Positions 9,392-37,289 of a stretch of 39,490 bases of DNA are shown piece after piece. The notes under the pieces are model-generated. The model was not told where the DNA came from, made no database searches, and was given only the letters and a program-made list of their open reading frames with translations. The position numbers and the translations under genes are program-made. This DNA is from a virus, in IMG/VR virus record IMGVR_UViG_3300025009_000242, positions 1 through 39,490 of that record. One strand, 5' to 3'. Positions within the stretch are counted from its first letter, which is position 1; every line of letters begins with the position of its first letter.

Positions 9392-10348
9392 TCAGTCCTC
9401 CTTCGGAAATAGCTTGTATTCCACACCATTCAAAAGTGCGCCAGCCGTCTTCTTGCCAACTCTATAAAATGACAGTCCGTTTTGGTACGCCATTTGGATA
9501 TAAGCCAAATTCCTCCCTTGCGGATATTCCGATGTCCATTCCCCCCATTGCTTGAAGAAAAACGGCACTGATTCACACTGCAAATTTTCCGCCTCCACGC
9601 ACTGATCCAGCAGAGATCGCACCCAATCCGGGTGCATCGGCCTGGCATGTGGCCCGCTCTCCCCGCCACAAATCACCCAATCGATCTTGCGAGATTGCAC
9701 CTCGTGATCATGGGGTGGAATATCGAGCCCTCCACAATAACAATCCATGCAAATGCCGCACAGATAATCAAAAATAGTAACCTTCTCCAACAGCGGCTCA
9801 CAGCTCACAAACCGCAGAGCTGCCTCCGTCTCCAGCAAAACCGGGATCCTCTCATTCGCACTCTGCTGATCCTCAGCGCTCACCCCCAGCCATACGTTGG
9901 GCAGCGGCCACTCAAAATCTGGCGAACACCACCCATGCTCTCCATAGATCGTCTCCAGCGAATGCTCAACATACACCGCCCGCCTCTTATCATTCATGTA
10001 ATCCCGCATCGCCGTAGCTCGCTTCGTGAGCACCTGGTACGTGTGCCACGGGGTAGCAGCCATCACCGCAAAAATTTCGTCGATAAACGTCTCCTCCCCC
10101 AGATCATCGAAAATCGCCGGGTGGAAAAGGTCACTCATCGAATTGACGAAGATCTTGCTCGGCTTCCTCCAATGGATCGGCTGCTCCAGCCGCTCTGGGT
10201 GGATCCGCACATCCGAAAACTTCCGCTCCCCCCAAAAGCGCCGCGCAATCCCCTCCGCATAACAATTCCTGCACCCCTCGCTCACCTTCGTGCAGCCCGT
10301 CACCGGATTCCATACCCGATCCGTCCACTCAATCGCCGTCTTCCCCAT
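9392..10348 (-). CDS. Phage Gp37/Gp68 family protein (DUF5131), radical-SAM-like
   Basis: This 318-residue protein matches the phage Gp37/Gp68 family by its N-terminal signature: residues 7-15 read WTDRVWNPV, then cysteines at 19, 26 and 29 (C-x6-C-x2-C), then CYAE. Later motifs IFVNSMSDLFHP, YQVLTKRA, NVWLGVSAEDQ and WVICGGESGPHARPM are typical of the family. The three-cysteine motif resembles an iron-sulphur site and the fold is thought to be a radical-SAM-like barrel, but the reaction is not established. A second cysteine cluster (CGICMDCYC, residues about 198-206) may hold another metal. The ATG at 10348 is chosen because AGGAGG precedes it; the frame runs to 10429. Confidence 0.88.
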   Translation of the reverse strand: MGKTAIEWTDRVWNPVTGCTKVSEGCRNCYAEGIARRFWGERKFSDVRIHPERLEQPIHWRKPSKIFVNSMSDLFHPAIFDDLGEETFIDEIFAVMAATPWHTYQVLTKRATAMRDYMNDKRRAVYVEHSLETIYGEHGWCSPDFEWPLPNVWLGVSAEDQQSANERIPVLLETEAALRFVSCEPLLEKVTIFDYLCGICMDCYCGGLDIPPHDHEVQSRKIDWVICGGESGPHARPMHPDWVRSLLDQCVEAENLQCESVPFFFKQWGEWTSEYPQGRNLAYIQMAYQNGLSFYRVGKKTAGALLNGVEYKLFPKED

Positions 10349-10358
10349 CCCACACCTC

Positions 10359-10715
10359 CTAAATCTTGTGACACCCAATCGACTGCCCGCGCCCACGCCG
10401 GACGACAGTCCTACCCTGATACATCCCAACCGGCGAGCTCTCCCCCGCCGCCTCCCTCTCCTTCGCCTTCTGCACCACCCTCTCGATATTCGCCTGGATC
10501 CGTTCAGCCTCCGGCGTGCAATCCTTGCACAGACCCGCCAAATTCAGAAGCCTTTTCCCCTTGCCACAATTCCCGCAATGCTGGCCCTGATCCACCTTCC
10601 GGCTGGCCGCAATATTCTTCATCGCACACGACCTGCATCGCCTGCTCGTCTCCTTGATTGGCGCACCGCAGTCCACACACTGCCCCGTCTGCCATGGCTT
10701 CTTCTCATCGCCCAT
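10359..10715 (-). CDS. Multi-zinc-ribbon protein
   Basis: This 118-residue protein has four cysteine pairs in its first 66 residues (CVDC, CRSC, CGNC, CKDC), enough for two zinc ribbons, followed by a charged helix and a basic tail. The ATG at 10715 overlaps the stop of the Topo VI-A-like gene (TGATG), with GGAGG seven bases upstream, so the two are translationally coupled. It could bind nucleic acid or serve as a partner of the topoisomerase-like protein. The family is not recognised beyond the zinc ribbons. Confidence 0.7.
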   Translation of the reverse strand: MGDEKKPWQTGQCVDCGAPIKETSRRCRSCAMKNIAASRKVDQGQHCGNCGKGKRLLNLAGLCKDCTPEAERIQANIERVVQKAKEREAAGESSPVGMYQGRTVVRRGRGQSIGCHKI

Positions 10716-12139
10716 CACAGCACCTCCCCATTCCGCCGTGCCTTGTACGCCTCGAGCTGATCCAGGTAATCCCGGCTGCTGTCATACAGCAAGCCATATG
10801 GATCCCCTTCCACCTCCGCATCGGGCACCGGATATTCAGCCAGGTCTACATACGCATTGTTCAGCTCATCGTAAATCTTCTCGTTGACCCCCTTCGCCCT
10901 CTCCGTCAATCGCTCCAGGCGCTCCCGGTGGCTCTCGATCTGGGGAACAAACTGTTCCACCAGCCTGTCAAACTCCTGACGGGTCTGCTCGAACGCTTCC
11001 ACCACTTCCTGGTATTCCGTTCTCACCTCGATCAGTTCATCCTCGTGCTCAGAAATGATCTCGCCCCTGATCCGGTCCAATTCGTTCTGCAATGCCTGTT
11101 TCGCCTCTTCAGCCCGGTCAAACAGATCCGTGTCGTAGTACCGCAGGATCTCCTGCACTACGATTCGGGCCAGCTCCCCTGGATACAGTGCCTCCAGCGC
11201 ATCCAGCTCCACCTGCCCCTGCCCGTACGCCTCCTCGAAATGCTCCTTCCGCAGATCGCTGTCCTTTACCGGCACCCTCGGCAGTTGAAATTCCCCCACC
11301 TGGTCCGCCGTCAGCACCACCGGCTGCAGCGCAATATCAAATTGATCGTATCCATCCGTTCGCTGGTAAAACTCAATCTTCCGCGCCACGCTGATCGGCA
11401 TCCCCAACCCTGCCGGATCGAAATCCGAAATATACAGAATCCGTGCGGGCCTGCCCGCCTCCTCAACCCGCTTCAAAAACGAGCGCACCGCCGTGATGCT
11501 CAACTCCCCCGCCCCCGTCACCAGGTTCGCCCGGTAGCGCCGGCACACCGGCTCCAGCACATCATTCATCGTCGTCTTCTCAGCCCATACTTCGATCAGA
11601 TACGGCTGCTGGATGTAGTCGAACCCTCCGCCTGCTTCCATTCTGGGCAGGCTGGGCAAACGGTCAGGCAGCGGGCGCAGCGTGGGCAGGTTGGGCAGCT
11701 CGTAATCATACGCTTCCCAGTAATCCAACAGATCCACCACCGGTTCAGGCTCCACTGAATTCCATGCGGCATTTACAATCGCATCCGGGTTCCTCCGGTC
11801 CACAAATGCATCCGGGCTCACCAGCCCCAAATACCGCGCCCACTTGCTGGCGTTGTTAAGGAAATCCCAGCATTGCTCCGTATTCTCGTACACCCGCCCG
11901 TCCGGCCGCTTCACCGGTGGGTCCTGGCTCACAATCTGGTAATGGATGCGACGCAGGTGTACCCCACGCCCATAACCGAACTGCCGCCATAGTCTGGCAA
12001 ACCACTCCGCCGCCTCCACCGTGCTGGGCCTGCCCACGTAAAACGGGTCATTATTAGAAGCCAGCGCCAGCAAGTCGGCGATCACACACCCCGTCTGTTT
12101 GGCAATTGCCTTGATAGAGTTATAATCAAAAGCGCCCAT
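10715..12139 (-). CDS. Topoisomerase VI A subunit/Spo11-like protein
   Basis: The 474-residue product has the two hallmarks of Topo VI-A and Spo11. The first is a winged-helix (5Y-CAP-like) segment ending in LRRIHYQ, where Y67 aligns with the catalytic tyrosine. The second is a TOPRIM domain with E187 (IEVWAEK) and D239/D241 (YISDFDPAG). A Pro-rich linker (about 148-166), built from a short-period DNA repeat, separates them. After residue 330 comes a long coiled coil (about 340-420) not found in the classical subunit. No Topo VI-B (GHKL ATPase) gene is present. Known phage and plasmid Mini-A proteins share this stand-alone arrangement. Activity as a nuclease, nickase or topoisomerase is inference. 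The ATG at 12139 has GGGAGG upstream and starts one base after the recombinase stop. Confidence 0.75.
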   Translation of the reverse strand: MGAFDYNSIKAIAKQTGCVIADLLALASNNDPFYVGRPSTVEAAEWFARLWRQFGYGRGVHLRRIHYQIVSQDPPVKRPDGRVYENTEQCWDFLNNASKWARYLGLVSPDAFVDRRNPDAIVNAAWNSVEPEPVVDLLDYWEAYDYELPNLPTLRPLPDRLPSLPRMEAGGGFDYIQQPYLIEVWAEKTTMNDVLEPVCRRYRANLVTGAGELSITAVRSFLKRVEEAGRPARILYISDFDPAGLGMPISVARKIEFYQRTDGYDQFDIALQPVVLTADQVGEFQLPRVPVKDSDLRKEHFEEAYGQGQVELDALEALYPGELARIVVQEILRYYDTDLFDRAEEAKQALQNELDRIRGEIISEHEDELIEVRTEYQEVVEAFEQTRQEFDRLVEQFVPQIESHRERLERLTERAKGVNEKIYDELNNAYVDLAEYPVPDAEVEGDPYGLLYDSSRDYLDQLEAYKARRNGEVL

Positions 12140-12140
12140 C

Positions 12141-13088
12141 TTAAATCCTCCCCACCGCATCCTCAAAATCTTCCCATCCCGGCGTCACATACCGGGCCGT
12201 CGTCTCCAGCCGTGCATGCCCCATCAGCTTCTGCACCACCGTCAGCGCTACCCCCTTGTCCACCATCCGCTTCGCAAACGTCGCCCGCAAATCGTGCGGC
12301 GTCACTTCTACCCCCGCCAGCCGCCCGATCTCTGCCACCATTCGCTCCACCGTCCGGGTGCTCAGCCGCTCCCCCGTCTTTCCCACGAACAATGGCCCTT
12401 CCTTCTGCCCAGAAATCTCCAGCCACGCTCCCACCGCTCGCAGCGCCTCCGTGTGCAGCGGAACCTCTCGTTTCTTCTCTCCCTTCCCCTTCCACACCAC
12501 CACCCGGCCCTTCCGCTCCCCCATTTGAACATGCCCTACATTCAGCGCCACCACCTCCCCCTCCCGCAGACCCGCATACACCATCAACGCCACCAGGGCC
12601 TGCCCTCGCACGGCTAGCCATCGCCCGAAATCCGTGCTGGCCGTATTTGCCTCCTGCTCCACCTTTCGCATAAACCGCTTGAAATCTACCGTGGACAACC
12701 ACCGTGGCGGAAGCTCCTCCTCCACCCAACGCTGCATATCCGCCTCGTGGTACGGGTTATACGAAAGCAGCCCCACCCCCACCGACCACTCACATAGCTT
12801 TTTCAGCGCCACCCGCCGCCGGTTCCACGTCGCCGGAGCCAGATTCGGGCGCTCACCATCCCCACTCTTCTGAGCCAGCGCCCACGCCCGATATCCCCGC
12901 AGATCCACCGTCGTAATCAATCCCGGCGCAAATCCGCACCCATTCTCCTCGGCGAACCAGGTCGCAAACGCCCGCACATCCTGCACATACGCCTTCACAC
13001 TGTTCGCGCTGATCCCTACCCCAGCCAGGTGCCCCCGAAACGCCGCTTCCCACTCCATTGCCACACCCACAGCAAGTTGTGCGTCCAT
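12141..13088 (-). CDS. Tyrosine recombinase (Xer/phage integrase type)
   Basis: This 315-residue recombinase has an N-terminal SAM-like core-binding domain (about 10-110) and a catalytic domain with R175 (GLREGE), a beta-hairpin lysine near 202-205 (KGKGEK), H265-x-x-R268 (PHDLR), H291 (GHARLET) and the nucleophile Y300 (RYVTPG). All the catalytic residues are present. The ATG at 13088 is chosen because GAGGAG precedes it. The genome also has a large serine recombinase. A Xer-like role in resolving multimers of a circular prophage, or integration, are both possible. It lies early in the leftward operon, immediately before the Topo VI-A-like gene. Confidence 0.9.
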   Translation of the reverse strand: MDAQLAVGVAMEWEAAFRGHLAGVGISANSVKAYVQDVRAFATWFAEENGCGFAPGLITTVDLRGYRAWALAQKSGDGERPNLAPATWNRRRVALKKLCEWSVGVGLLSYNPYHEADMQRWVEEELPPRWLSTVDFKRFMRKVEQEANTASTDFGRWLAVRGQALVALMVYAGLREGEVVALNVGHVQMGERKGRVVVWKGKGEKKREVPLHTEALRAVGAWLEISGQKEGPLFVGKTGERLSTRTVERMVAEIGRLAGVEVTPHDLRATFAKRMVDKGVALTVVQKLMGHARLETTARYVTPGWEDFEDAVGRI

Positions 13089-13099
13089 CGCTCTACTCC

Positions 13100-13186
13100 T
13101 CACCCTTCCATCAGCTCAAACACCCACTCGATCAACCCCTCGATAAACCCCAGCACCATCGCAATCATCACCTTAATCTGCTGCAT
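13100..13186 (-). CDS. 28-residue hydrophobic small protein
   Basis: The ATG at 13186 overlaps the stop codon of the HTH gene (TAATG) and is preceded by GAGGAGGGAG. The product is a single hydrophobic helix (QQIKVMIAMVLGFIEGLIEW then a short acidic end), probably membrane-associated. Its stop lies just before the recombinase start, so it fills an otherwise unexplained 97-base gap. It is too short for most gene callers. The function is unknown. Confidence 0.6.
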   Translation of the reverse strand: MQQIKVMIAMVLGFIEGLIEWVFELMEG

Positions 13187-13719: not shown

Positions 13720-13748
13720 ATTCTAGCACCTAAAGAATAGATTGTCAA
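13720..13748 (-). promoter_or_regulatory. Leftward early promoter (sigma-70 type)
   Basis: Read leftward, TTGACA (13743-13748), 17 bases, then TAGAAT (13720-13725): near consensus with ideal spacing. It should drive the whole early operon beginning with the HTH gene at 13548, after a leader of about 165 bases. Confidence 0.8.
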
Positions 13749-13772
13749 CATGATTAACCGGAAATGGTAACT

Positions 13773-13787
13773 TTGATTTACAATCAA
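13773..13787 (+). promoter_or_regulatory. Repressor -10 box embedded in a palindrome
   Basis: TTGATTTACAATCAA is a perfect 6-base inverted repeat around TAC. It contains TACAAT (13779-13784), a good -10 box placed seven bases before the ATG at 13791. This geometry suggests a leaderless repressor mRNA and autoregulation by a protein bound over the -10. No clear -35 box is visible. Confidence 0.5.
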
Positions 13788-13790
13788 CTT

Positions 13791-14183
13791 ATGGGCAGCA
13801 ACGGCTTTCGCTCCATTCTCCAGGACGCTTATGACGCTTGGAGAATTGCCAGGATCAGGGCTAAAGAAAACATCTCCCTGGATAGCTTTGCCGACTACCT
13901 TGGAAAAAGCCAATCAACGGTTAGCATGTGGCTGAACAAAAAACGCTCCCCAGATCTGGAGAGCATGCAAACAATCGCCCCCAAACTCGCACAACTACTA
14001 GGAGACGAAATCTATGTAAAATTGGGCTTGATGCCCGAAACCGAAACCGACCCCCTCCTCAACTTCGTCAACCGCAACTGGGACAAACTCCCCCCTGAAG
14101 CCCAGGAGCAAATCCAACAAATTATAGACAACTACCTCAACCACCCGGGGATTAACCCACTGGGGGATACCGCAGACGAGTAA
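13791..14183 (+). CDS. XRE-type HTH repressor, probable lysogeny repressor
   Basis: This 130-residue protein has an HTH domain at about 28-75 (ISLDSFADYLGKSQSTVSMW then LNKKRSPDLESMQTIAPKLA). The C-terminal segment is helical and acidic, with no LexA/CI-type peptidase residues. It is divergent from the early operon and faces operator palindromes, which is the CI position. I chose the ATG at 13791 because a -10 box ends six bases before it; a second ATG lies in frame at 13764. Neither start has a Shine-Dalgarno site, consistent with leaderless translation. Without a self-cleavage domain, induction must use another route. Confidence 0.75.
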   Translation: MGSNGFRSILQDAYDAWRIARIRAKENISLDSFADYLGKSQSTVSMWLNKKRSPDLESMQTIAPKLAQLLGDEIYVKLGLMPETETDPLLNFVNRNWDKLPPEAQEQIQQIIDNYLNHPGINPLGDTADE

Positions 14184-15303: not shown

Positions 15304-16920
15304 ATGCCCAACTCCCCTTTCCCCCCCGGTGCCCACGTCGCTGCCTACCTGCGAGACAGCGGCCACGAAGACCAGGAACTCTCCACCTCCCACCAGGAAG
15401 CGAACCTCCGCGCCTTCTGCACCCAAAACGGCCTTATCCTCGCCGAAATATACCGCGACGAAGCCCGCCCCGGCTCCACCACCGTAGGCCGTGAAGCCTT
15501 CCACCGTATGATCCACGACTTCCGCACAGGCGCTCACCTCGCCGGTCTCATCGTCTGGAAATTCGCCCGCTTCGCCCGCAACATAGACGACGCCCAATTC
15601 TACAAAGCCGACCTCCGCCGCCGTGGCTTCAGAATCTACTCCCTAAATGACACCATCCCCGATGGCCCCGAAGGCAGATTCTTTGAAACCGCTATTGATT
15701 GGATGAACGAGCGCTACCTGGAAGACCTCTCCATAGACATTAAAGACGGCCTCAAATACAACTTCACCCACTATGGCGCCGTCCCCGGCACTCCCCCCGC
15801 AGGCTTTCGCCGTGGCCCCGAAATCGTCATTGGGCACCACCGCGACGGCCGCCCCCGCACCATCCACCGCTGGGAACCCGACCCCCTCACCGCACCCCTC
15901 GCCCGCCGTGCCTGGGAAATGCGCGCTGCAGGCGCATCTCTCAAGCAGATCGCAGACGCCACCGGCCTCTTCAAATCCCTCAACGGCTGGACCACCTTCT
16001 TCGCCAACCGCCTGTACCTGGGCATCATGGTTTACGCCGGAGAAACCGCCCCCAACTACTGCGATCCGATCATAGACCAGGCCACCTGGGACACCGTACA
16101 GTCCATCATCCAGGCCAACGCCGCCAACCAAAACCTGCGCACCAACAACCACCCCCGCCGCAACAGCGAAACCAGCCCATGGCTCCTCTCCGGCCTGGCT
16201 GTCTGCGCCGTCTGCGGCTCCCCCCTCAACGGTGGCGGCCACAAACAAATCAATGGAAAAATCGTAACCTCCTACGAATGTTCCCGCAAGCGCCGCCGTA
16301 GAGACTGCGCATCCAAAGCCATCCCCAAAGACCTTCTCGAAACCGGCGTCCTCCAAGACATCCGCAACTACATCCTCACCCCCGGCGTGCTGGCTAGCTG
16401 TCAGGCCGTCATCGCCGCCGAAAACCAAACCCAGGCCCAAAACATCCAACAGGAAAAAAAACGCATCAAAGCCAAACTCACCGGCGTTCGCAAGCGCCTC
16501 GACAACATCACCGAAGCCCTATCCATGCGCCCCAAAAGCCGCTCCCTGTTGAAAAAGCATGATACCCTTGAAGCTGAAGAAGCCAAACTCCTCGCCAGCC
16601 TCAGCGAAACAGAAAAAGCCTCCACCCCAATCACCCTCACCCCCGACGAGATAGACAACATCGCCCCCATCCTACAGGCCCAACTAAGCGGAACCCCGCA
16701 GGAAGTCAAACAATTCCTGCGGGGCTGGATCAAAAATATAATCGTCGAACGCGACGGCCGCAACGTCCTCGGCCTCATCAACTACTACCTCCCCCCCACT
16801 GACCTGACCCCTCCCTCAACCCCAACCGATGATAATAATGTGTCAATGCCTCGCACTCCTCCTGGGGCGCTGTATCATAGACACATATTCACCCACCCCT
16901 TCCGCTATACACTAAAATAG
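15304..16920 (+). CDS. Large serine recombinase (phage integrase)
   Basis: This 538-residue recombinase has an N-terminal resolvase domain with R17 and the catalytic S19 (YLRDSG), then LIVWKFARFARN near residue 82. A recombinase domain (about 160-280) follows, then a zinc ribbon (CAVCGSPL ... YECSRK ... DC, about 305-340) and a coiled coil (about 390-460). These are the parts of large serine integrases such as phiC31 and Bxb1. It joins attP and attB and normally needs a directionality factor for excision. No att site is recognisable. The last residues (HPFRYTLK) and the TAG stop are inside the left arm of the inverted repeat at 16893-16965. No strong ribosome-binding site precedes the ATG at 15304. 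Confidence 0.92.
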   Translation: MPNSPFPPGAHVAAYLRDSGHEDQELSTSHQEANLRAFCTQNGLILAEIYRDEARPGSTTVGREAFHRMIHDFRTGAHLAGLIVWKFARFARNIDDAQFYKADLRRRGFRIYSLNDTIPDGPEGRFFETAIDWMNERYLEDLSIDIKDGLKYNFTHYGAVPGTPPAGFRRGPEIVIGHHRDGRPRTIHRWEPDPLTAPLARRAWEMRAAGASLKQIADATGLFKSLNGWTTFFANRLYLGIMVYAGETAPNYCDPIIDQATWDTVQSIIQANAANQNLRTNNHPRRNSETSPWLLSGLAVCAVCGSPLNGGGHKQINGKIVTSYECSRKRRRRDCASKAIPKDLLETGVLQDIRNYILTPGVLASCQAVIAAENQTQAQNIQQEKKRIKAKLTGVRKRLDNITEALSMRPKSRSLLKKHDTLEAEEAKLLASLSETEKASTPITLTPDEIDNIAPILQAQLSGTPQEVKQFLRGWIKNIIVERDGRNVLGLINYYLPPTDLTPPSTPTDDNNVSMPRTPPGALYHRHIFTHPFRYTLK

Positions 16921-36614: not shown

Positions 36615-37289
36615 TTATGATAGGGGTACCCACTCCCACAATCCCAGCGCCCCTCTTGCTGGCACCGGTTCAGGTAACAGCTTGACATCAGCCAAAATCC
36701 ACGCGTACCGCCCCGGGGTATAGTCTCCGAATGACAGTTCCGGCTCATCCGGGGGCAGGTATCTATATTCTCCCCCCAGCACGTGTGTAAACGACTGGAT
36801 TCTCGGTATCTCCACACACCCCACCAGCCTGCACGTTGCCAACACCTTCCCCCTCGGAATATGAAACGGCGTGATCCCCAACCTGCTCAAAATATCGCTG
36901 AACGGCTGCTGCCCGCACAGCTCCTGCGCCCACCTCGGGAACCTCTTCGCCGCATGGATCGCCAGTGGCCCCTGGTAACTCGTGGCCCACGATCTCGTTT
37001 CAATCTGCTTCGCCCCAACCGCCACAAGCGTGGCCCACGGCTGTATCAACGTCAGTGCCTTCCACTTGCGTTTTGCCAGAATTGCATCATACTCAGCCAC
37101 AGATTCCCACAGAGTGCTGCACTCCATGCAAGTGCCGTGCTCCCGGCCGCCCATCACCGCTGGCGGCACAGCCCCACAATGTGGGCAGGGTGGATACACC
37201 CAATATCGATCCTCGCACCCCAAGCACATCCCGTTTCTCAAAATCGCCGCAGTCCTTCCACAAACCCCGCACTTCCACGTAAGGCTCAT
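36615..37289 (-). CDS. ASCH-domain protein with N-terminal zinc ribbons
   Basis: This 224-residue protein has two N-terminal zinc-ribbon pairs (CGVCG, CLGCE, CPHCG, CMECS; residues about 7-60). An ASCH/PUA-like domain follows (about 75-224) with ALTLIQPWATLVAVGAKQIE, TRSWATSYQGPLAIHAAKRF, GKVLATCRLVGCVEI and GRYAWILADVKLLPEPVPA. ASCH domains bind RNA or act on modified nucleosides. The start at 37289 has an AGGAAACAGGG site. Confidence 0.8.
   Translation of the reverse strand: MSLTWKCGVCGRTAAILRNGMCLGCEDRYWVYPPCPHCGAVPPAVMGGREHGTCMECSTLWESVAEYDAILAKRKWKALTLIQPWATLVAVGAKQIETRSWATSYQGPLAIHAAKRFPRWAQELCGQQPFSDILSRLGITPFHIPRGKVLATCRLVGCVEIPRIQSFTHVLGGEYRYLPPDEPELSFGDYTPGRYAWILADVKLLPEPVPARGALGLWEWVPLS

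Follow-up and report, generated by a model that had tools for sequence, protein, structure and literature searches.

The window analysed here, a 39,490-base IMG/VR virus record from a tailed phage that carries genes for terminase, portal, major head, tape measure and endolysin, encodes a long-form Mini-A, a protein related to the A subunit of topoisomerase VI (Topo VI-A) and to Spo11. Given its homology to gp49 of Pseudomonas phage NP1 and to PHROG 6247, its R-x3-Y motif and E/D-x-D triad, its location in a mobile element and a B subunit that goes undetected, the protein is a Mini-A. Its family, catalytic residues, clade, tail motif and context are established by sequence comparison and structure prediction, and they place it in an apparently undescribed, larger-bodied branch bridging bacterial phages and archaeal plasmid-vesicle elements. 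Mini-As are common Spo11 relatives in viruses, and we found no reported activity for them in the literature. Fixed elements at both ends of the protein, in a long clade found in two domains of life, offer conserved tail residues as handles for mutation; the clade also informs the question, recently raised for SPO11 as well, of how A-type subunits operate when no ATPase controls them.

The gene and its operon

An earlier reading made from the sequence alone had proposed a Topo VI-A/Spo11-like ORF at 10715-12139 in a phage replication operon, without giving a strand. The gene lies on the minus strand, with its ATG at 12139 and its stop codon ending at 10715, encodes 474 amino acids, and is preceded by a Shine-Dalgarno-like stretch, GGGGAGG, read from the sequence at 12153-12147. 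The proposed setting is supported: the gene belongs to the early operon of the tailed phage, which also contains a primase. Immediately upstream, an XerC/D-like tyrosine recombinase gene (12141..13103, minus) has its stop codon ending at 12141, one base before the Mini-A ATG; downstream, the ATG of a two-zinc-ribbon protein (10359..10715, minus; 118 amino acids from the ATG, weak zinc-ribbon Pfam matches) overlaps the Mini-A stop codon by one base (TGATG). Ahead of this leftward operon there is a promoter-like site at 13720..13748 (minus; TTGACA-17-TAGAAT, with TG before the -10), although its role as the operon promoter is only a suggestion, since such sites are as numerous in the real sequence as in shuffles.

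Other genes of the record deserve mention in their own right. The leftward promoter-like site faces a rightward gene, the two spanning 13720-14183, whose product (gene at 13764-14183) looks by sequence like a helix-turn-helix repressor, in an arrangement resembling a phage lysis/lysogeny switch. The rightward arm encodes a large serine recombinase (15304-16920, plus; Resolvase, Recombinase and zinc-ribbon domains), so that two recombinase types are present in the phage, this serine integrase-like one and, in the early operon, the XerC/D-like tyrosine recombinase, as is also the case in locus L110. Downstream of the zinc gene, a DUF5131 protein of the phage Gp37/Gp68 type (9392-10348, minus; E=5e-90) has a 45% relative in that same locus. 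A ParA-type partition ATPase (845-1600, minus) gives a hint of plasmid-like maintenance of the phage, and the protein encoded at 36615-37289 (minus) shows weak zinc-ribbon-like and ASCH-like matches.

Homology and family identity

The assignment as a Topo VI-A/Spo11-like protein of the Mini-A type, which the sequence-only reading had made from motifs, is borne out by homology. The protein matches PHROG 6247 (“DNA topoisomerase”) with E=1e-31, and tblastn matched 72 phage records, including Pseudomonas phage NP1, whose gp49 aligns at 26% identity (E=6e-12) over residues 55-359 only. NP1 gp49 is the example of a Mini-A given in the literature (Takahashi et al. 2020, doi 10.1093/nargab/lqz021, as cited in PMC7614492 and PMC8185306), and homology to it makes the window protein a Mini-A as well. 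Most of the matched phage proteins have a length near 300 residues, and their alignments do not extend beyond residues 55-360; 52 further viral Mini-As were aligned for the comparisons below, and in one scan of viruses a relative was encoded by 538 of the 600 pattern matches.

Relatives that align over the full length exist as well. One (E about 1e-106, 43-50% identity) comes from a Roseovarius MAG, at a locus (L002) that also contains a phage capsid gene, with another (L102) in a second genome of the same class. Full-length relatives were also found in 11 viral contigs (38-51% identity) and in haloarchaeal plasmids (mostly 27-30%), and a scan of viral contigs with the haloarchaeal alignment returned no relatives. 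A Rhodobacteraceae copy of the long Mini-A (L003:7722-8852, plus) is encoded by an ORF without the N-terminal domain that carries the catalytic tyrosine and is probably a decaying gene, and divergent Mini-A-like proteins are encoded in 28 plasmid records from Streptomyces (e.g., L014:4662-5609), one of which was placed on the tree, on a long branch.

At the profile level the resemblance to Topo VI-A itself is weak. A phmmer search of the single protein against the PDB gave coiled-coil noise only, a profile search reached the Topo VI-A structure 1d3y at E=0.026 amid coiled-coil matches, and hhalign against a shallow Topo VI-A profile gave E 0.0026 at low probability. The Topo VI-A profile PF21180 stayed below its cut-off, with no match in the record, and weak profile matches were obtained to JetD (E 0.001), DUF2399 (E 0.0015) and TIGR02679.

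Catalytic residues and domain architecture

The residues singled out by the sequence-only reading, Y67 in LRRIHYQ and the acids E187, D239 and D241, are exactly where it had placed them. In the 55-row alignment, R63 and Y67 are present in all 54 rows containing the region, and E187, K188, D239, D241 and E311 in 55/55; all seven residues are also kept in the 17-row alignment of long forms. The conservation of Y67 among homologues, the lack of which that reading had named as a refutation, is thus complete. The candidate nucleophile Y67 (codon 11939..11941, minus), four residues after R63, aligns with the TLRELYY motif of Topo VI-A in an HMM alignment of very low score, and E187 (11579..11581, minus) and D239-F240-D241 (11417..11425, minus) provide the predicted metal-binding acids. 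The spacing (R-Y 4, E-D 52, D-D 2) is that of R102, Y106, E202, D254 and D256 in Methanosarcina mazei (M. mazei) Topo VI-A, where E342 is the partner of R102 in a clasp (PMC13040014). E311 in ELDAL (11207..11209, minus), matched by eye to EQQSL of haloarchaeal Topo VI-A, probably corresponds to this E342.

The AlphaFold2 (AF2) model consists of a confident Toprim domain (mostly pLDDT >90), a disordered linker, two long helices and a terminal helix. The Toprim domain (residues 181-335; 11135..11599, minus) finds Topo VI-A as its top structural matches, also by Foldseek: Z 12.6 and rmsd 4.5 over 167 residues with 1d3y, and Z 12.2 and rmsd 3.3 over 155 residues with 9o0g, followed by MksG (Z 11.0) and yeast Spo11 (Z 9.5). 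Structure prediction and profile search had been suggested by the sequence-only reading as a check, and the best Toprim matches, at Z about 12.5, agree with its assignment. Whole-chain Foldseek against viral models gave no match under E=0.001. N-terminal to the Toprim domain, residues 38-115 (11795..12028, minus) form a putative 5Y-CAP/winged-helix domain with a weak fold match. Modelled in isolation (pLDDT 79.6), the N-terminal domain is a small helical domain of DNA-binding type, whose structural neighbours, at Z <5, are for the most part winged-helix proteins (linker histone, ESCRT-II, MarR, CAP), with Topo VI-A absent among the matches listed; a 5Y-CAP fold is compatible with this model but not proven by it.

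Four further parts complete the chain. An N-terminal extension (residues 1-37; 12029..12139, minus), with helices at 6-16 and 20-26 and the DLLAL..NDPFY sequence, is conserved in the long forms and absent from the short Mini-As. The linker (residues 117-173; 11621..11791, minus; mostly pLDDT <50) is Pro-rich, with 9 Pro in residues 117-175. It does overlie a period-9 DNA repeat (11667-11699), as had been noticed, but the repeat itself is ordinary and was discarded as a notable feature, since its TRF score of 38 is equalled by about 17 arrays in the 39.5 kb, with about 0.6 arrays of such score expected in a gene of this size. Similarly, the long C-terminal coiled coil that had been described is real in this protein, with AF2 helices at 337-364 and 366-430 (10850..11131, minus) and a hydrophobic period of 3.5 residues in 366-430 that was matched by 0/2000 shuffles, but it is not fixed in the family, where its length is very variable. 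Behind the coil, at residues 451-461 (10757..10789, minus), the tail motif LYDSSRDYLDQ is a fixed feature of long forms that the sequence-only reading had left unmentioned.

A long clade spanning phages and plasmid-vesicle elements

In both of two trees a branch supported at 100/100 separates all long forms from the rest. Extension columns had been dropped automatically from the first of these trees, as too few rows filled them, and since the root is not known, “clade” refers here to one side of this branch. The long forms have in common the N-terminal segment DLLAL..NDPFY, A.WF and the tail motif [LI][FYL]D[ST].R.[YF]..[QN], the latter occurring in 18 of 19 long forms, with L119 deviating at the Arg, and in 0/22 short Mini-As. 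Between these elements the coil ranges from very short (L118-L120) to about 95 residues, which rules it out as a defining part of the clade. Takahashi and colleagues are said to have described in 2020 a short C-terminal motif that separates Topo VI, Topo VIII and Mini-A.

The first six long forms retrieved from haloarchaea share one conserved gene neighbourhood. Among their records is pR1SE, a plasmid of Halorubrum lacusprofundi whose transfer takes place in membrane vesicles and which gives its name to the pR1SE-like elements known as apHPVs (PMC10818511). The gene for ORF25, an ATPase of the VirB4/HerA/packaging type (PMC10818511), accompanies the long Mini-A: of 14 plasmid records carrying ORF25, 11 have a long Mini-A, at 0.6 to 3.2 kb in 10 of them and at 18.5 kb in one, as judged from hit coordinates. 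The identity of the 838-amino-acid gene as ORF25 rests on its size, its position and the description in PMC10818511 rather than on a printed coordinate. As the word “topoisomerase” is absent from the main text of that paper, the long Mini-A gene seems, from the main text, to have gone unrecognised there. An in-frame deletion system has been published (PMC10102395) for Halorubrum lacusprofundi, the host of pR1SE, which makes this plasmid a tractable archaeal setting for the long Mini-A and its link to a packaging-type ATPase a testable one.

Partners and genomic neighbourhood

The sequence-only reading had seen no B subunit, and a six-frame search of the record, which may be incomplete, for HATPase_c and Topo-VIb_trans agrees, with no match here and positive results in control genomes. 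Across the clade, the neighbours of the long Mini-A are often replication genes, in a neighbourhood that varies widely: a DNA polymerase and an SbcC-like ATPase in L115, a primase/helicase in L116 and L118, a D5-like helicase in L114, a primase-like gene in L122, an overlapping AAA_25 ATPase gene in L002 and L121, and MCM near the haloarchaeal forms. Packaging or capsid genes lie near some long forms (L116, L117 and L124, as well as ORF25 in the apHPVs). In L002 (7168-8019) and L102 (15-584, plus), a ParB-like gene with a weak nucleoid_noc profile match is directly upstream of the long Mini-A and overlaps it.

Four phages sharing the primase of the window (36-53% identity) also have the tyrosine recombinase (28-41%), and Mini-A is absent from their records, each of 36-38 kb and possibly incomplete. 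By this comparison, Mini-A is an optional gene, dispensable for the replication module of this phage lineage, and not one of its core components.

Proposed mechanism and alternative explanations

We regard the long-form Mini-A as probably a stand-alone enzyme of the type IIB topoisomerase A type, acting on the replicating DNA of its element. Sequence and model suggest that it is most likely an ATP-independent, homodimeric tyrosine DNA cleaver and religator serving element replication; its dimerisation, cleavage, resealing and biological role are what we infer from them. Two copies would pair, presumably through their Toprim domains and perhaps with the C-terminal helices stabilising the dimer, and Y67 of one copy would attack a DNA strand at the Mg2+ site formed by E187, D239 and D241 of its partner. 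The expected product is a double-strand break, staggered by two bases and covalently linked through 5'-phosphotyrosyl bonds, which could be resealed. With no GHKL subunit, the reaction would proceed independently of ATP, under the control of DNA bending, supercoiling and dimer formation, and its target would most likely be replicating element DNA, to be relaxed or unlinked. That A-type proteins can be active in the absence of a B subunit follows from mouse SPO11: on its own, in vitro, it introduces double-strand breaks that are tyrosine-linked and leave two-base 5' overhangs, it can reseal nicks, and dimerisation limits it (PMC11922746); by analogy, Mini-A would work in the same way.

The main rival is a Spo11-like break maker, in which protein-linked double-strand breaks, made deliberately in element (or host) DNA and for the most part left unsealed, would start recombination, help packaging or prime break-induced replication, rather than do topoisomerase work. 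The adjoining SbcC-like gene of L115 fits such a role, because its SbcCD/Mre11 relatives process protein-blocked ends, and so do the packaging/HerA-type ORF25 ATPase beside the haloarchaeal long forms and the undetected B subunit of the record. SPO11 alone behaves in this way in vitro (PMC11922746). However, no repair partner is conserved across the clade, and the same active site can reseal, so that sequence does not separate a break maker from a topoisomerase; we see this role as possible, though not probable. A metal-dependent nuclease of the JetD/MksG type, hydrolysing competing plasmids or host DNA, would account for the weak JetD, DUF2399 and TIGR02679 profile matches and for MksG as the fourth structural match. 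In MksG, however, the domain equivalent to 5Y-CAP has no catalytic tyrosine (PMC10123090), whereas Y67 is invariant, and no condensin-type/SMC JetABC partner was seen among the window genes scanned against Pfam and PHROGs. A defence function, suggested by nothing more than weak JetD matches, was set aside on account of the conserved tyrosine, and we hold such a nuclease to be unlikely.

The contiguity of the recombinase, Mini-A and zinc-protein genes, tightly spaced by a one-base gap and then the TGATG overlap, had led to the proposal that the three may act together, in effect as one DNA-exchange machine. The adjacency stands, but the joint action is not supported: four related phages keep the recombinase without Mini-A, and none of the loci fetched contains a homologue of the zinc protein, from which it follows that the trio is not a conserved unit. 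Nor has the window recombinase any BLAST relative at the 11 other viral long Mini-A loci (about 5 kb on each side); a pattern scan found no viral relatives of it, although the route through the primase did find some. Such a machine is accordingly very improbable.

Comparison with known systems

The long Mini-A can be compared with several other proteins. The phage Mini-As (NP1 gp49, PHROG 6247) are likewise stand-alone A-type proteins with R-x3-Y and the E/D-x-D Toprim set, encoded in replication regions of viruses, with similar Toprim motifs (Q..-LPxxPxK, ELDA). With respect to them, the window protein adds the N-terminal extension (DLLAL..NDPFY, AEWFA), a longer linker, a coiled coil and the C-terminal tail motif, and it is separated from the short forms as a clade at 100/100. 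The long Mini-As of haloarchaeal apHPVs are closer in architecture, as they align at full length together with the two extensions (27-30% identity, 95-98% of the query covered), keep all catalytic residues and the tail motif, and belong to mobile elements, often with MCM or AAA nearby; they differ in their archaeal plasmid context beside the ORF25 ATPase and in an insert in the linker.

Topo VI-A shares the Toprim fold and the catalytic residues with their spacing, but Topo VI needs its ATPase B subunit, of which none was detected in the window record, and the window protein falls below the Pfam cut-offs and has extra N- and C-terminal parts. The JetD/MksG nucleases of Wadjet systems have a Toprim domain related to that of Topo VI-A, but no 5Y-CAP tyrosine (in MksG, PMC10123090), and are partnered with an SMC-type complex. 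Spo11, finally, is an A-type enzyme whose mouse form works in vitro without a B-type partner, although it is a eukaryotic meiotic protein linked to the long Mini-A by fold and motifs only.
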